This document shows, piece by piece, positions 10,262 through 18,500 of a stretch of 45,153 nucleotides of DNA (the stretch's first letter is position 1; each line of letters opens with the position of its first letter). The notes under the pieces are model-generated. The model saw nothing but the letters and a program-made list of their open reading frames with translations. It was not told where the DNA came from and did no database searches. Source of the stretch: a virus. A program made the position numbers and the translations under genes. Where the stretch lies: IMG/VR virus record IMGVR_UViG_3300036859_000708, positions 1 to 45,153 of that record, one strand, 5' to 3'.

Positions 10262-11749
10262 CTAGAAGGGCCTCCAAGCCTGCGACTTCGGGCAGATGTT
10301 GAAGGCCATGCCGATGTGCTCCACCTTGCCGACGCGGAGCCCACCGAACATCATCTGCGCCCACGGATGCTCCGCCTTGGCCGTCGGGAAGAGTGGGAAC
10401 ATCGTCATCGGCAGAAGCCGGCGGAAGGTGACCGCCTTGTCGCCCGGAGTGAGATTCAGGCCGAGAAGGATGCTGGTGCCCGGGATGAAGGCGTTCAAAT
10501 CCTCGAAGACGGTGCTCGCGCCGGCCTGCCGCGCGACCTGGATCATCTCGCGAAGATCGGTCTTGGCGTTCGTGCCGTTTCGCCGGCCGCGGTAGATGAC
10601 GTAGCCGGTCACTTCGATGCTCCCCGGGTTGGTGATCGTGATCGTCACCTTGTCGCCCTGGGCGACGGTCACCTGAGCGCTCACGGCAGTCGTCGAGCGT
10701 CCGGCCTTCCCGCGCGCCTCGACGCCGTAGTAGTAGAGCCCCGACATCGCCAGCGTGAACTGAGAGCTCGCACCGCCCGCGCCTGCAACCGCAGAAGCGA
10801 TGACGGGCACCGGGAGACCGCTGCCGGCGACGAGACCCGGGTAGGCGCCGGTCCGGGCTTCCCAGGGCATCCCGCCCTCTTCGATGAAGATGTCCTCGTG
10901 CGCCCGAACCGTGCCGCCGTTCGACTGCACGTTGATCCCGGAGACCACCGTGCCGACCTCGAGAGACCGAAGACCGGCCGACGGATTCGCGGAGACGCGG
11001 AACGCCGGATCGAGCTTTTGGTTGATCTCGGAGGTCTGGACCGCTGGCGAGCAGATGTAGTCGGTCAGCCGTCCGAAGTGTCCACGCGAGCGGATCACCG
11101 CGGCCAGGTTCTGGATCTCCTCGGCGACGTAAGAGAGCCCGCCGCCGCGGACGTCGATCATCAGGTCGCCGTCGCCGTGCGCACGGATCTGGGTAACCAA
11201 CCCGTCGAACTCGAAGGGGTTGATCGCCGCATTCCCGTAGATGATGCCGTACTCGGCGTCGACCTTCAGCGAGCGAGCGCCGTTCAGCTTCTCGCGGGCG
11301 ATCGCGTCGACGAGGCCCTTGGTGGAGGCCTGGACCGCCGACACGCGCCGGCGATTCATGAGGTACTTCATCAAAACGACCTGGCGACCGTAGGTCCCAG
11401 TCGTCTCGACGATGTCGCCGAGCTCGTCGTTGAAGCCCGCACCCGGCCACCCGCCGATGTCGGTCTGCTTCACGAACTCGTCGACGGTCGCTGTCGCGGG
11501 GCTCTGATCGATGAGGTTGAAGAGCGTGAACATGTCGTCCAGCGGGATCGTCGCGAGCAAACTGTCCTCGATGGACTGGAGCTGGAGCGCTCGACCTCCG
11601 GTGAAGCCGGCGACGTCGGTTCCGTACCCCGACGTGACGGCCTTCAAGAATTCCCGCGGGTCCGTGAAGACGAACCCCGGAAATGCGCCGGGAGGCATGA
11701 ACCCCTCGCCAGCTTCGACGCCTGTGAACGGAATTCCGTACTCGTTCAT
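10262..11749 (-). CDS. Major capsid protein with inserted fibronectin-III-like domain
   Basis: The 495-residue protein starts at ATG 11749 after AGGAGGAAGAG. Residues 41-100 (GYGTDVAGFTGGRALQLQSIE, then TVDEFVKQTDIGG) match the N-terminal region of HK97-fold capsid proteins in which a T-G-G-x-A-L motif precedes helices. Residues about 120-300 contain helical and strand elements of the shell core. Residues about 312-425 form an insert with fibronectin/Ig character (PVIASAVAGAG, GLYYYGVEARGKAG, GDKVTITITNPGSIEVTGYV). The C-terminus returns to shell sequence (KVEHIGMAFNICPKSQAW). It lies after the protease and scaffold candidates. Residues 40-61 recur in the putative protease. The call is firm; the domain boundaries are approximate. 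Confidence 0.85.
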   Translation of the reverse strand: MNEYGIPFTGVEAGEGFMPPGAFPGFVFTDPREFLKAVTSGYGTDVAGFTGGRALQLQSIEDSLLATIPLDDMFTLFNLIDQSPATATVDEFVKQTDIGGWPGAGFNDELGDIVETTGTYGRQVVLMKYLMNRRRVSAVQASTKGLVDAIAREKLNGARSLKVDAEYGIIYGNAAINPFEFDGLVTQIRAHGDGDLMIDVRGGGLSYVAEEIQNLAAVIRSRGHFGRLTDYICSPAVQTSEINQKLDPAFRVSANPSAGLRSLEVGTVVSGINVQSNGGTVRAHEDIFIEEGGMPWEARTGAYPGLVAGSGLPVPVIASAVAGAGGASSQFTLAMSGLYYYGVEARGKAGRSTTAVSAQVTVAQGDKVTITITNPGSIEVTGYVIYRGRRNGTNAKTDLREMIQVARQAGASTVFEDLNAFIPGTSILLGLNLTPGDKAVTFRRLLPMTMFPLFPTAKAEHPWAQMMFGGLRVGKVEHIGMAFNICPKSQAWRPF

Positions 11750-11824
11750 CTCTTCCTCCTGCCCTTTCCGCTTCCTCTCGATTCAGGCGGTTCGGTCGGG
11801 GTGTTCTCCCGGTCGTTTCCTTCG

Positions 11825-12664
11825 TTACGCCGCTGCCGTGAGGCAGCGCTGCAGCCATTCTCCGAGCGGCGCGTCGTTCGCGGCCACTTCCGCGGCGCTC
11901 GCGTTCATCGCCTTGTAGGTCTCGAGCGACGCGATCGCGCCGGCGTTCTGGAGCGTCGGGTCCTTCACGTAGCCCGTCTTCGCCTTCAAGAAGAGCTTCT
12001 CGCCGCGGAGATCGTCGCCCGGATCGCCGGTAACGAGCTGGCCTTCTCCGGGCGCACGCCGAGGCGCTACCTCGAGCTGGGGTTGACCGATCCGGCGCCC
12101 GCGCGGCGTAGCCGCGAGCGTCTCGACGGATGCCTTCAGCATCTCGATCTGCTTCTCCTGGCCGACGACTCGCCGGGCGAGCAGCACGGTCGCCTTCATC
12201 ATCTCGGCGATCCCGGCCGCGTGATGCCGGTTCCAGGCCTGGTTGTGCTCGGCGTTGGTGCGGATCTGCGCGGACAGAGTGTTCACGCCGTGCAACTGCT
12301 CCTCGAGGATCGGCAGCGCGTTGATGTTGCCGGCCTCGTCGGGAATCTTCGCCTTGAGGAGGACCTGATCGATCGCGGTGTGGTCGACGTCACCGGCCTC
12401 GACGATCGGCAGGACCTCGAGCTCGGCTTCCTTGTCGATCCGCGCCTTCTGAAACATCGGCACGCCCGCCAGGAAGTCGTCGAGCTCCTTGTCCGGCGTG
12501 TTCGCCTTCGTCCCGCATGCGGGGCAGAAGACATGCGCCTTCATCATCTCGCCGGTGCACGAGGAGCACTTCACCATCTCGTGCTCTTCGTCGCCCTTCG
12601 CGCCGCACTTGCCGCAGAAGCGCTGGCCCTTCACCATTTCGGCCTGACAACCCTTGCACATCAT
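11825..12664 (-). CDS. Zinc-ribbon protein at the scaffold position
   Basis: The 279-residue protein starts at ATG 12664 behind GGAGGAGGAATCCC. Two zinc ribbons open it (CKGCQAEM ... CGKCGAK; CSSCTGEM ... CPACGTK, residues 3-52). The rest is helical and charged, with probable amphipathic helices between residues 60 and 200 and an Arg/Pro-rich linker near 195-210. It lies between the putative prohead protease and the capsid gene, where the scaffold is encoded in most tailed phages. Scaffolds are usually helical but rarely start with zinc ribbons, so a regulatory or assembly-factor role remains possible. Confidence 0.6.
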   Translation of the reverse strand: MMCKGCQAEMVKGQRFCGKCGAKGDEEHEMVKCSSCTGEMMKAHVFCPACGTKANTPDKELDDFLAGVPMFQKARIDKEAELEVLPIVEAGDVDHTAIDQVLLKAKIPDEAGNINALPILEEQLHGVNTLSAQIRTNAEHNQAWNRHHAAGIAEMMKATVLLARRVVGQEKQIEMLKASVETLAATPRGRRIGQPQLEVAPRRAPGEGQLVTGDPGDDLRGEKLFLKAKTGYVKDPTLQNAGAIASLETYKAMNASAAEVAANDAPLGEWLQRCLTAAA

Positions 12665-12683
12665 GGGATTCCTCCTCCCGCCC

Positions 12684-13649
12684 CTACGCGGCGGCCTTCG
12701 ACTGCTCCGATCGGTTGCGGATGTCGTTTGCGAAGCGCAGCGCCGAGCGCCGCGCGGTCATCTTGTCGAGCCCCTCGCAGCGCTCGAAGTGGTCTTGCAG
12801 GAGCGCGATGCTCGGCAGCATTCCGGGCATCGTGTGGTCACACGCGCCCGTGTGAAGCGCCTTCATGTAGCGCGTGGTCGCGGTCCCGTAGATTCCGAGC
12901 GGGCGCCGATCGATCGACTGGCGCTGAAGCGCCTGACCGCCGCCGAGGCCGGCGACGTCCGTTCCATACCCGGCGGTGAGAGCCTTCTGCACGCTGCAGG
13001 AGCAGTGCTCGCCGCCGTCGCACGAGTTCGTCTCGGCGAGGATGACCGCCTTGGCGAACTCGCCGAAGGGGATCCTCGAGACCGCCGGGAGCGCGAGGTT
13101 CTGCTGGCCCTTCGCGAAGCCCAGGTTCAGCCACACGCACTTCGTGATGACCTGGTGGCAGACGCCGTTCTTGCAAACGGTCTTGAGAGAGCCTGGAGGT
13201 AGGGGACCGGCGACGCTCGGTCGCCACTTCATCGGCGGATCCGAGAGCTGCGTTGCCCACCACCAGTCCGCCGCCGACACGCCGCCGAACTCGGGGCCGG
13301 CAGAGGGGCCGCCCTGGTAGATCGACCCCTTCACGAAGACGCCGCCGGGACCTTCCTTCACCTCGACCGGGAGGCCGATCTCGTAGATGTGCGGATTCGG
13401 CTTCCCGAGGCGGTGGCCGACGATCGTCATGTGATCGATGTCGATGTTGCCGTTGGCGAGGAAGTTCTCGCGCTGCTCCATGAGTGCGCTCTTCAGGATC
13501 CGCTGGTTCTCCTGGTCACCCGCCTCGTTCGAAGCCTCGACGTAGACGGAGCGCTTGCCTCCCTCCTCGACCGGACGCGCCTTGAAGAACATCGCGTCCT
13601 GGCCTGCGAAGGTGATCTCGAGGAGGTTTTCCGGTGTCGCTGCTTCCAT
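12684..13649 (-). CDS. Putative prohead maturation protease
   Basis: Start is ATG 13649 (MEAATPENLLEITFAG); the upstream TTG would add ten residues inside the 3' flank of the terminator. Of 321 residues, about 60-150 contain ALMEQRENFLANGNIDIDHM (55-74), then IGLPVEVKEGPGGVFVKGSI and WWWATQLSDPPMKWRPSVAG. The His in DIDHMTIVGHRLG and the following beta segments are arranged like prohead proteases that place H-D near 'G-x-x-x' strands, but I cannot assign a full triad with certainty. A Cys-rich segment (CKNGVC, CDGGEHCSCS) precedes the 22-residue motif shared with the major capsid protein (residues 226-247). Context (first of protease-scaffold-capsid) supports the call. Confidence 0.6.
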   Translation of the reverse strand: MEAATPENLLEITFAGQDAMFFKARPVEEGGKRSVYVEASNEAGDQENQRILKSALMEQRENFLANGNIDIDHMTIVGHRLGKPNPHIYEIGLPVEVKEGPGGVFVKGSIYQGGPSAGPEFGGVSAADWWWATQLSDPPMKWRPSVAGPLPPGSLKTVCKNGVCHQVITKCVWLNLGFAKGQQNLALPAVSRIPFGEFAKAVILAETNSCDGGEHCSCSVQKALTAGYGTDVAGLGGGQALQRQSIDRRPLGIYGTATTRYMKALHTGACDHTMPGMLPSIALLQDHFERCEGLDKMTARRSALRFANDIRNRSEQSKAAA

Positions 13650-13680
13650 CCGCCCTGCGTCGATCCCCCACAAACACAAC

Positions 13681-14619: not shown

Positions 14620-14858
14620 TCGTCTCCCGAGATTCGCCGCGCCTCGTACCGTCCATGCGCGGCCTTGAAGTGGCGCGAGATCGCGCCCTCGTCGCCGGCG
14701 AGCGCCGCTTTCTCCTCGCGCGCCATCGTCTCCGTCGCGGTGTCGGCCATGGAGTCGGCGAGCTTCCGGATCATGCGGTCGTGCTCGCGCTGGCGCGCGT
14801 GGAGCTGCTCGAGCTTCGTGACGCCCTTCGTCAGGCGGCTGCGGGTGGAGTCGTTCAT
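14616..14858 (-). CDS. Small helical protein of unknown function
   Basis: The 80-residue protein starts at ATG 14858, overlapping the HNH gene stop by ATGA. The sequence is almost wholly helical and charged (VTKLEQLHARQREHDRMIRK ... SRHFKAAHGRYEARR). No known motif is visible. It sits between a likely mobile HNH gene and another unknown gene. Confidence 0.6.
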   Translation of the reverse strand: MNDSTRSRLTKGVTKLEQLHARQREHDRMIRKLADSMADTATETMAREEKAALAGDEGAISRHFKAAHGRYEARRISGDE

Positions 14859-15574
14859 GCGCTCTTCCGTTCCGCCTCGGGGTGGCATCGAGTACAAAGC
14901 CACTCGACGTCGAGCCAATTCTCGGGCGCGTAACCAAGGTGATGATGGGCTTGGATAGCGCTTCGATCATCCACCGTTTGGTCGCCAGCCGATCCGCATT
15001 TTTGACAACACTCGGGGCGCACAAGACGCCCTGACTCCAGAGCAGCCTTAACGGCAAGGCGAGCGCTCACGTGGTCCGGGAACTTCTCGGCATACCTCCG
15101 GAGGTATGCGCGCCCCTTTTCGCTCTTCTGCCATCGGCTGTACGCCGCCTGCTTCACCTTCCGGCCTTTCGGTGTGCGGTGATATCGCATCACCGCCTCG
15201 GAGGCCGCGCGGCGGCGATGTGGGAGCTTTCGATAGCGCTCCTTTATGGCCTTGCCCGATTCGCCGTACCAGCGAGTCCAGCCCACCTGCATGCAGGCCT
15301 TGCAGTGTGATCTGAGACCATCGCTATGATTCTTGTCCGGCGAGAACTCCGCTCGTGGCTTGACCTCCTGGCATCGACTACAACGCTTGTTCCCTTCAGC
15401 AGCGAGAGTGCTTAGTTCTATCTTCCTCGGACTGGGGGGTTTTCGATGACGCTCACGATACCGGCGAGCGCGCTCTACCTGACACTTCTTACAGTGAGAC
15501 GGGATGCGCCCTTTGTAGGGAGGATAAAACTCACTCGGCGGTTTCTGCTCGCCACATTCGCTACAGCGGTTCAT
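14855..15574 (-). CDS. HNH endonuclease-like protein with two zinc ribbons
   Basis: Start is ATG 15574, four bases inside the end of the helicase gene. The 239-residue protein has two N-terminal ribbons (CSECGEQKPPSEF ... CKKCQ; CSRCQEVKPRAEF ... CKAC), a basic middle (RYHRTPKGRKVKQAAYSRWQ) and a C-terminal HNH core (CQKCGSAG, AIQAHHHLGYAPENWLDV, CTRCHP). It is a homologue of the protein at 4723-5283, which has one ribbon. The second ribbon here looks like an extension or duplication. It is most likely a free-standing homing endonuclease inserted after the giant helicase gene. Confidence 0.82.
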   Translation of the reverse strand: MNRCSECGEQKPPSEFYPPYKGRIPSHCKKCQVERARRYRERHRKPPSPRKIELSTLAAEGNKRCSRCQEVKPRAEFSPDKNHSDGLRSHCKACMQVGWTRWYGESGKAIKERYRKLPHRRRAASEAVMRYHRTPKGRKVKQAAYSRWQKSEKGRAYLRRYAEKFPDHVSARLAVKAALESGRLVRPECCQKCGSAGDQTVDDRSAIQAHHHLGYAPENWLDVEWLCTRCHPEAERKSA

Positions 15575-18500
15575 GCCGCGACCTTGGTCCTTTCGGCCGC
15601 TTTCAGCCGTGCCTCGGAGAATACACGGGCGATGCCGGTATCGTCCACGAGGTCGCCGGGGTCGGTTAAAATCTTGCGGAGCTCCATCTTCCGATTCACA
15701 CGGTCCGCCGCGCGCGCCTCGAAGTCGGTGTTCGTGGTCAGGTCGACCAGGTCGATGGCGCCAGCCTTCTGCCCAAGTCGATCGATGCGGCCGTTCCGTT
15801 GTGCCCACGTCTTTGCCGTCCAAGGCCTGTCAAACTGATAGAGCCTCTGCCCTCGCTGCAGATTTAACCCACTTTCTGCGGCATCGCTCACCACGAAGAC
15901 GTCGGCCTTCGCTTCGCCGGTCTCGGGCTGGAACCGGAGGCGCTTCCGGTCCCGCTCCTTCGTCGAGTCGCCTCCGGTCAGCTTCTCGACCCGGTGCCCG
16001 TCCTCGGCCAGGGCCTCGGTGATCTCGTCGACGGCCTTCAGGTTGTGGGCGAAGACGACAGCCGGACCGTCCTTCGGGTTGTGGGCCTTCAGGTCCTGCC
16101 GGAGAGCCGCGATCTTGGCGTTTTGGTCCTTCGGCGCAAGGTTGACGACGCGGTTGAGGGCGTGCTCGGCGTTCGGGTTTCGCTGGATCTCCTTAGCGAT
16201 CGCCTCGTGCTGCTCCGCCGGCGCCGCCGCGAATCGATCCGGGGCCAGTACCTTCGCCGCGGCGACGTCGACCTTCCCGGAGATCCGCGCGGCCCGGAGC
16301 TTCTTCACCGCGTTCTGGACCGCCGCGTACTGCTTCGCTTGCTCCGGATGGAGCTCGACGGAGATCGGGTTTCCGTTGGTGATCGTCTGGCGATTGACCT
16401 TGTGGTTGCCGCGGATCTCGGCGGCGTAGACGTAGGGCGCGACTTCCCGCCGGAGAGCCTCCGCCGCGGCCGTCGTGTTCACGCCATACCTTCGCTTCCA
16501 GTCAGCGGCATCTCCGTACCGTCCGTCGGCGTGGAGCTTATCGAGCAGGGATCGGAGTTCCGAGACATCGTTCTTCACCGGATCCGCTGTCGCCGAGAGA
16601 TAGTACGGCGTGTTGTCGGACACCGCCTGCATGATCTTCGAGACGAGCGAGTCAGGCTTATTTTCGCGGTCGAGGAGGCCGTGGGCCTCGTCCGCCATCA
16701 GGTACTGGTAGGAGATCCCGTTCTTCGCGAGGACCTCTTTCACGAGCGCTGCGCGCGCCTCACGGCGGTTCTGCTCGCTCTTCCCGGGCATCGCGTCCAT
16801 GAAGTGCGTGCTCGCCTCTTCGGGCTTCACGCCTAGGTGCTCGGCGATCAGGTGCACCATGTCGTCCCGGAAGGATTGGTGCGTGTGGACGGTCGCCTGC
16901 AGCTTCGGATCCGCGTGCTGCGCGAGCCGCCCCTCTCGCGAGAGCCCAGGGTCAGCGGCGTAGTTCATGGAGCCCGGCTCGATGTTCTTCGCGAACTCCC
17001 CCCGAAACTGCCCCTGGACCGATGGCGGCACGACAAAGAGGCCGCGCTTCACCCCGGACTCGGGTGTGTGGAGGAGGTGCGAGAACGCGCCGACGCCCAC
17101 GCTGCTCTTCCCCGAGCCAGTTCCGAGTGCGCCGGCGAGGCGCTTCGTTGCGAGGAGGCTCTTGACGGTCCGCTGCTGGTGAATCAGCCGCGCTTGTGCG
17201 CCCTCAGAGTCGGACCAGCGCCGGTCCTTCAGGAGCTCGACGGGGCTCCCCGGCCGCCAGTTCTTGGCGACGCTCGGCAGCGCGGCCGCGAGCTCGGCCT
17301 CGGCGCGGTTGCCGAGCGTATAGCGCTCGTGCCCGTCGGGCGTCCGGCGCTTCGGAGCGTTCGTACTTCCACCCAGCAACCCCATCTGGTTCTGGCGTTC
17401 TATCTCCTCCGCCTGCTGGATCCGCTCCATCCGCTCGGACGCCGATCCGGCCGAGTATTTTCCGCCGACGCGGTTTCGCGCGGCGTCGAGGATCCGCCGG
17501 CGCTCGGTGAGCAGCGCCTCGCGCTTCGCCGGGTCGAGGAAGCCGAGATGGAGCTCTCCGTGCGCCGCCGGCCGGATCCCGATCCGCAGCGGCTCATCGT
17601 GGAGCATCGTGTAGGCCTGGTGGAAATCCTTCACGAAGTCGGACTTCAGCCGGTCCTGGAGCGCGGTGTAGGCGTTGTGGACGCCGCCCATCGCCGCGGT
17701 GTACTCGTTCCACCCGGGGCCACTCGGGGCCCTATATGGCCCTTTAGGGCCACCAGCGCCCCCAGCCGCCTCGAGTTCCTTTCGCTGCTTGTCCCACTCC
17801 AACCACTCCGGGGTGGTTTCACCTCCGCCGAAGAGCCCGGGCGTTGTCTTCGCGGGCTCCTCGGCGAGGTGCTTCCCCAGCCTTTCCTTGGAAGTCGTGT
17901 CCCCTGCGGCGGCTACATGTGATCCACCCCCCTTCGCAACGTGAGAATCGAAGTAGCCCCGTAGCGCGCGCTGGTCCTGGCCCGTGAGCTCGCCGAGCGG
18001 CTTGAACGCCACCATGCGGCGCGGATCCGACGCGAGAGCGCGCGTGATCGCTTCCTGGCTCTGCTTCGAGTCGTAACGGATGCCCTGCGAGTTGATCGGC
18101 GCGGCGTCGGGGGCCCCCACCTTCCGGAAGTGCTCTTCGGTGATCCGGTCGACCGCCGCGGCGTGATCGCTCGCCTTGGCGAGCCGCATCTTCGGCTTCC
18201 CGTCCTCGCCGAGTACCGGCTTGCCCCTCTCGACGAGAGGGACGCGGGTCGGGAAGGCCTTCTCCAGCGCCTCACCGTAGCCTGCCCGGTGCTCAGCCGG
18301 CACCGACATGATGGAGTCGTTCATGTCGCGGAGCACATTGTCGAGCGGCTCGCCGTTCGCCGCGTGCCGCGCGATGTGCTCGTTCACATGGTCGGCGACG
18401 CTCCCACCATCGCCGAACTTCTGGAACGGGCGGATGTTCGTGGTCAGACTCGCCGGCTCGAGGCCGGGGCCGTCGAAAGTCGTCGCCGCCCGGCTGATCG

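Follow-up and report, generated by a model that had tools for sequence, protein, structure and literature searches.

A copy of the capsid N-arm in the tail of prohead proteases from SPO1-type phage head modules, and its possible role in protease docking

Introduction

How does a viral maturation protease enter the capsid that it is to process, and what purpose is served by a tail that the enzyme cuts from itself? For giant phages, protease entry into the closing procapsid and the purpose of self-cut tails have both been called unresolved, as has the role of C-terminal autocleavage in the phiKZ protease (PMC5694885), and SPN3US gp245 is known to remove its own 64-residue C-terminal propeptide (PMC10052503). 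The head module of an IMG/VR viral contig, IMGVR_UViG_3300036859_000708 (positions 1 to 45,153, the 45,153-nucleotide window analyzed here), raises these questions in a specific form: behind the catalytic domain, its prohead protease carries a stretch that closely resembles one near the N-terminus of its own major capsid protein (MCP). We propose, with a probability only slightly above one half, that in the mature MCP this motif forms the N-arm and that the protease tail is a selected copy of it, which would dock the protease in the procapsid. Read from the sequences, the pair is conserved, co-varies within genomes, is absent from the scaffold and lies in both proteins behind the same Lys↓(Ala/Ser) site (the arrow marks the scissile bond).

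Results

The stretch shared by the two proteins of the window spans 26 residues, MCP K36-E61 and protease K222-D247, of which 19 are identical, and the ungapped BLOSUM62 score of the pair is 97 as opposed to a maximum of 46 in 100 shuffles. An initial annotation of this locus had reported 16 identities in 22 residues between MCP 40-61 (11567-11632) and protease 226-247 (12909-12974) on the minus strand; these values are exact when the protease is numbered from the ATG at 13649, and the similarity begins four residues before that stretch. Moreover, positions 20-49 of the MCP profile phrog_752 match protease residues 229-258 (E 0.02), and no third copy of the motif is present in the six frames of the window.

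What does this stretch represent in the capsid protein? Over residues 32-476 the MCP matches phrog_752, a profile of the capsid family of SPO1/Herelleviridae (E 3.2e-63); it is 38% identical to that of Bordetella phage PHB04, and its AlphaFold2 (AF2) model is closest to the SPO1 capsid 9vel (E 2.8e-28), with the phage 812 capsid 5lii, of HK97 fold, at E 1e-12. K36 is invariant in relatives and aligns with the P1 Lys of A511 and phage 812, in both of which the mature MCP, produced by a cut at Lys↓Ser/Ala, has the motif at its very start. The A511 GenBank record annotates mature Cps (mat_peptide) from residue 24, right after K23, with the first residues SFTTGYGITPDTQ, and the phage 812 entry 9row contains a 439-residue chain, equal to the 463-residue precursor minus 24, that starts with SFQTGYG. 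For SPO1 we infer the same start from entry 9vel, in which 434-445 of 468 residues are modelled and 445 is the length remaining after Lys23; judging from this chain length, the whole N-arm is probably ordered in at least one chain. Since the mature MCP of relatives starts at the motif, the motif corresponds to the N-arm of mature SPO1-type MCP, and the MCP of the window is predicted to be cut after K36. The initial annotation had named retention of the full N-terminus by mature capsid protein as evidence against processing, and the capsid protein is instead shortened exactly at the motif (A511 record; PDB 9row).

The protease model has its best Foldseek match in T4 gp21 (5jbl, E 3e-4, probability 0.99), followed by herpesvirus proteases, at low TM-scores to 5jbl of 0.24 by query and 0.40 by target, and the protein matches phrog_1028 (head maturation protease) weakly. 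H73 and S145 are invariant in 51 sequences and, from knowledge of the family, are taken to be the catalytic His and Ser. The catalytic domain (~22-198) and the C-terminal helices (253-320) are mostly confident in the AF2 monomer, the latter being at best weakly related between the two subgroups (hhalign probability 25%). Most of the motif, like its linkers, falls below a predicted local distance difference test (pLDDT) score of 50, and protease residues 216-230 and MCP residues 1-57 lie below this value too; an arm that becomes folded only on its partner would be expected to show such disorder, which is seen for the greater part of both motif copies in the monomers. Because Lys23 and Lys200 are invariant and Lys222 is nearly so, three cuts are predicted, one at the N-terminus, one following the catalytic domain and one right before the motif; all three residues fit the site consensus, which is compatible with autoprocessing of the tail. 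The linker preceding the motif-proximal Lys↓Ala is Cys-rich in the window (protease residues 209-220, ~12990-13025, minus strand), and Cys-rich linkers of the SCDGGEHCSCS or CCGGCNCSGG type occur in several divergent proteases, also in relatives L018, L116, L139 and L142.

Could the motif itself be the signal for cleavage, as the initial annotation had suggested alongside scaffold docking? Scaffold proteins contain 472 hydrophobic-x-Lys-(Ala/Ser) sites compared with 64 in shuffled sequences, or about seven per protein, and these sites occur without the motif, as do the six hydrophobic-x-Lys↓Ala sites in the scaffold-like protein of the window. The motif was therefore rejected as the cleavage signal, which is more simply the short hydrophobic-x-Lys↓Ala/Ser sequence, and the 25 residues behind that signal would do something else. 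It is still very likely that the protease processes both itself and the capsid N-terminus, as had been suggested, since both copies lie directly behind a protease site, even though the 22 residues are not what is recognized. Docking fits better than a cleavage signal because the motif is on the retained (primed) side, where it forms the mature capsid arm and not the propeptide, with scaffold and shell both eligible as the partner. Derivation of the protease tail from the scaffold C-terminus was rejected, as tail and scaffold show no similarity in either subgroup (hhalign probability <2%). The N-terminus of the window scaffold is a double zinc ribbon (12512-12658, minus strand; DZR Pfam E 1.9e-6), which is unusual for a scaffold and is found among 163 scaffolds only in the window and in its closest relative, L018 (4116-4949).

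The pair is widespread. Scans of IMG/VR gave 160 loci, and 89 de-replicated, non-redundant phage contigs were tested by comparison of the first 100 MCP residues with the contig's own protease (score >45). The MCP N-terminus matches the protease tail in 77 of these, always at 57-77% of protease length, with 1 match for shuffled proteases and 2/87 for scaffolds. Of the remaining 12, the majority show a shortened tail of the type EKALTAGGGSPLVPESLEGG, and the rest are diverged or, in L126, retain almost nothing. The initial annotation had proposed aligning homologues of both proteins, and by this measure the pair is kept together, the motif being reduced or nearly lost in the protease only in one subgroup. 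In this SPO1-like subgroup (L109-L141) the MCP has the full arm, but of the motif in the protease just the two ends are left, and in L126 it is nearly lost. Moreover, a set from bacterial genomes, collected after the models were built, has the pair at 19 of 19 testable loci from Nitrospirales to Thermus, with no comparable match in neighbouring open reading frames; one or two of these loci repeat known viral contigs (e.g. an 87,509-base Nitrosomonas contig and L050). The head module also lies inside bacterial contigs of 1.8 Mb (L187, Oxalobacter) and 1.4 Mb (L201, Microvirga), and for this reason the lineage probably includes prophages. In a Calidithermus chliarophilus contig (L203) the MCP has a divergent AGDPHALD motif, and no protease was recognized upstream.

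Both homologues are present in fourteen annotated phage records. The motif is found in both proteins of PHB04, Touem01, Dolphis and Jeremy (Pseudomonas), ST4 (Aeromonas), phiT5282EW (Enterobacter), fHe-Yen8-01 (Yersinia), Mecenats66 (Morganella) and Cumys (Thermus) and, within the Herelleviridae, of Bp8p-C and Goe26 (Bacillus), Fi4S2 and 812 (Staphylococcus), Revolver (Enterococcus), ADU4 (Brochothrix), A511 (Listeria), Bromius (Lactobacillus) and AVP (Aerococcus). Herelleviridae, proteobacterial phages of ~90 kb and Thermus phages thus all belong to the group, which includes the staphylococcal phage ISP and close relatives of SPO1. The phage K-type MCP N-terminal peptide occurs at 1116 places in 582 phage records, approximately two per genome, and exactly two motif copies are present in 15 of 17 whole phage records, with no third copy in another virion protein in any of the 17. 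Lalka27b gives a single match because its protease copy is degenerate, and Cumys gives none because the pair is divergent in both proteins. A tblastn search with the 101-residue protease tail alone returned no match at E<0.01, which reflects only the limit of a single-sequence search. Downstream of its capsid gene, the Thermus phage Lalka27b has an annotated CRISPR array that lies beside a transposase of the TnpB family (L009, 8162-8600).

Do the two copies change together? They are 62% identical within genomes and 46% between genomes, and when protease partners were shuffled within MCP clades the observed value was reached in 0 of 5000 trials at four clade cut-offs; this permutation leaves some phylogeny in and constitutes strong support, not proof. 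A partial Mantel test that controls for the rest of both proteins gives r 0.38 (0/500 permutations). Lineage-specific oddities appear in both copies, such as HGGTDQ in ADU4, AGDPHALD-GVPAIR in Cumys and AGTG in Bromius, at codon identities close to the expected level. These sequence comparisons favour a model in which both copies are under selection to match one shared partner.

The genes of the head module are transcribed from the minus strand in the order helicase (phrog_62), endonuclease, prohead protease, scaffold-like protein and MCP (Table 1). The Endonuclease VII/HNH-like protein between helicase and protease (14855-15823, minus strand) contains a Lar-like stretch, and its gene may have entered the head module as a mobile insertion.

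Table 1. Features of the head module discussed in the text, with positions in the window.
Feature	Position	Strand	Basis
Major capsid protein (MCP), 495 residues, SPO1/Herelleviridae type	10262..11749	-	phrog_752 and SPO1 capsid structure match
MCP propeptide (residues 1-36), loss on processing predicted	11642..11749	-	P1 Lys36, codon 11642-11644
Motif copy 1, MCP K36-E61 KAVTSGYGTDVAGFTGGRALQLQSIE, predicted mature N-arm	11567..11644	-	ungapped alignment; low pLDDT in monomer
Scaffold-like protein between protease and MCP	11825..12664	-	position, cleavage-site enrichment
Prohead protease, 321 residues from ATG at 13649; possible TTG start at 13679	12684..13649	-	fold, invariant residues
Protease C-terminal helical domain, residues 253-320, behind the motif	12690..12893	-	mostly confident helices, AF2 model
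Motif copy 2, protease K222-D247 KALTAGYGTDVAGLGGGQALQRQSID, putative MCP-arm mimic	12909..12986	-	alignment; mostly disordered in AF2 monomer
Protease Lys222 (VQK↓AL), predicted P1 of motif-proximal autocleavage	12984..12986	-	Lys in 68/71 relatives
Protease Lys200 (EFAK↓AV), predicted cut at end of catalytic domain	13050..13052	-	invariant in 51 relatives
Protease Lys23 (MFFK↓AR), predicted N-terminal autocleavage site	13581..13583	-	invariant in 51 relatives; fits scaffold-site consensus

Discussion

The protein families of this head module were already known, and what appears to be new is a protease tail, predicted to be autocleaved, that contains a putative capsid-protein mimic across the whole group. 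Neither the shared motif nor a protease copy of the capsid arm, including in Herelleviridae, was found to have been reported earlier in open-access papers; subscription papers and supplements were outside this search. The module resembles those of SPO1, A511 and 812 in its MCP family, in the order protease-scaffold-MCP and in the K↓S/A processing predicted for it, and A511, 812 and close SPO1 relatives have the motif in both proteins just as the window does, but the window belongs to a Gram-negative-associated branch. Like T4 gp21, of the herpesvirus assemblin superfamily, the protease has the catalytic fold of 5jbl with His and Ser; unlike gp21, its tail holds a copy of the MCP arm, and cleavage is predicted after Lys where T4 cleaves after Glu. 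A similar mimicry in T4 was rejected, as no similarity was found between gp21 and the gp23 N-terminus (score 29, shuffled 38). In the herpesvirus protease-scaffold fusion (UL80/UL26 type), the protease enters the procapsid by a C-terminal extension that is removed by self-cleavage; that tail is shared with the scaffold, whereas the tail described here is shared with the MCP and shows no similarity to the scaffold. The motif is also comparable to the T4 capsid-targeting sequence (CTS), a short shared peptide that targets proteins to the prohead and lies beside a site for the prohead protease. However, the CTS sits in an N-terminal propeptide that is removed (PMC5694885), and the motif is on the primed side, is retained in the mature MCP of A511 and 812, and copies the MCP.

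How would such a tail act? We hypothesize that the tail of the precursor protease would occupy the site at which neighbouring capsid subunits bind MCP arms, or else a site on the scaffold shared by the two precursors, and that this docking would recruit a modest number of protease molecules into the procapsid, near their substrates. Autocleavage at Lys200 and Lys222 would then release the catalytic domain, and the leftover tail peptide would bear the same new N-terminus as mature MCP; C-terminal autocleavage has precedents in SPN3US gp245 (PMC10052503) and the phiKZ protease (PMC5694885). A bolder and distinctly more tentative version is that the arm mimic makes the protease an honorary capsid subunit, whose self-cut would leave a capsid-like peptide as a permanent minor component of the shell, perhaps in arm sockets left without a donor, e.g. 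around the portal vertex. The protease of relatives has been found in purified virions of fRuSau02 (PMC5618024), Bc431v3 (PMC3601020) and JS1 (PMC12977511), as would be expected if the tail remains in the shell. Several points weigh against docking by mimicry: the protease in virions may be mass-spectrometry carry-over, the mimic would face competition from MCP arms, which are locally very concentrated, and the full motif is not indispensable, as it is reduced in 12 of 89 contigs and the protease copy of Lalka27b is degenerate.

One alternative hypothesis, which we regard as unlikely, is that the protease itself recognizes the motif at an exosite. Its own copy would bind in cis, as an autoinhibitory pseudo-substrate, and the MCP copy in trans, such that these cuts are ordered or delayed relative to those in the scaffold. 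In both proteins the motif directly adjoins the scissile Lys, scaffold sites too mildly favour Leu at P2' and Ala at P4', and the reduced tails retain precisely the K-A-L-x-A-G and ESLEG ends, all of which an exosite would explain. However, cleavage is predicted at many scaffold sites that lack the motif, the AF2 monomer does not place the motif confidently on the catalytic domain, and a function within the shell is suggested by the fact that mature MCP retains the motif.

Comparably doubtful is the hypothesis that precursor MCP and protease share the peptide in order to bind the same scaffold site during procapsid growth. Co-variation of the copies is what a shared partner predicts, and the T4 core uses targeting sequences for its internal proteins (PMC5694885), but the motif remains on mature MCP once the scaffold is destroyed, and it is conserved although scaffolds are highly divergent and of low complexity.

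Very improbable is functionless concerted evolution, in which a partial duplication is homogenized by gene conversion between loci ~1.3 kb apart. The initial annotation had pointed to the likeness of the DNA and to partial gene duplication. The motif DNA is indeed 79% identical over 78 nt, but the same codon is used at 13 of 20 identical residues where 10.9 are expected, so that protein identity and codon bias account for the likeness, which adds nothing extra. Among relatives the excess of identical codons is small (684, expected 640.5, z 2.5) and most genomes stay close to the codon identity expected; the unusual residues shared by the copies in ADU4, Bromius and 812 are likewise encoded without such excess. 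The protease copies of L019 and L097 do show excess codon identity to the MCP copy, that of L097 being the MCP-type ASNYQTDV form, and are perhaps recent gene conversions, a process that would be rare and not the main cause. Moreover, the similarity stops sharply after QSL(D/E), and the motif is conserved across MCPs that are only ~20-25% identical. Recent duplication or conversion was therefore rejected for the window and most relatives, and concerted evolution is largely refuted, whereas an ancient duplication is the likely origin of the pair. Because the copies co-vary more than phylogeny accounts for, and gene conversion has left little trace in synonymous codons, it would be protein-level selection that maintains them. 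Chance or compositional resemblance was rejected as practically negligible, given the shuffled scores and the recurrence of the pair across unrelated hosts.

If docking by the arm copy is correct, a viral maturation protease would be recruited by molecular mimicry. The label on the tail is the capsid protein's own arm, in well-studied, therapy-relevant phages (Kayviruses, A511 and relatives of SPO1), and because this label is recognizable the question of protease recruitment can be tested by point mutations. In addition, the motif serves as a marker for prohead proteases that are annotated as 'hypothetical protein' (e.g. in Touem01, phiT5282EW and 812), and hydrophobic-x-Lys↓Ala/Ser provides a processing rule for the head proteins of the whole group.

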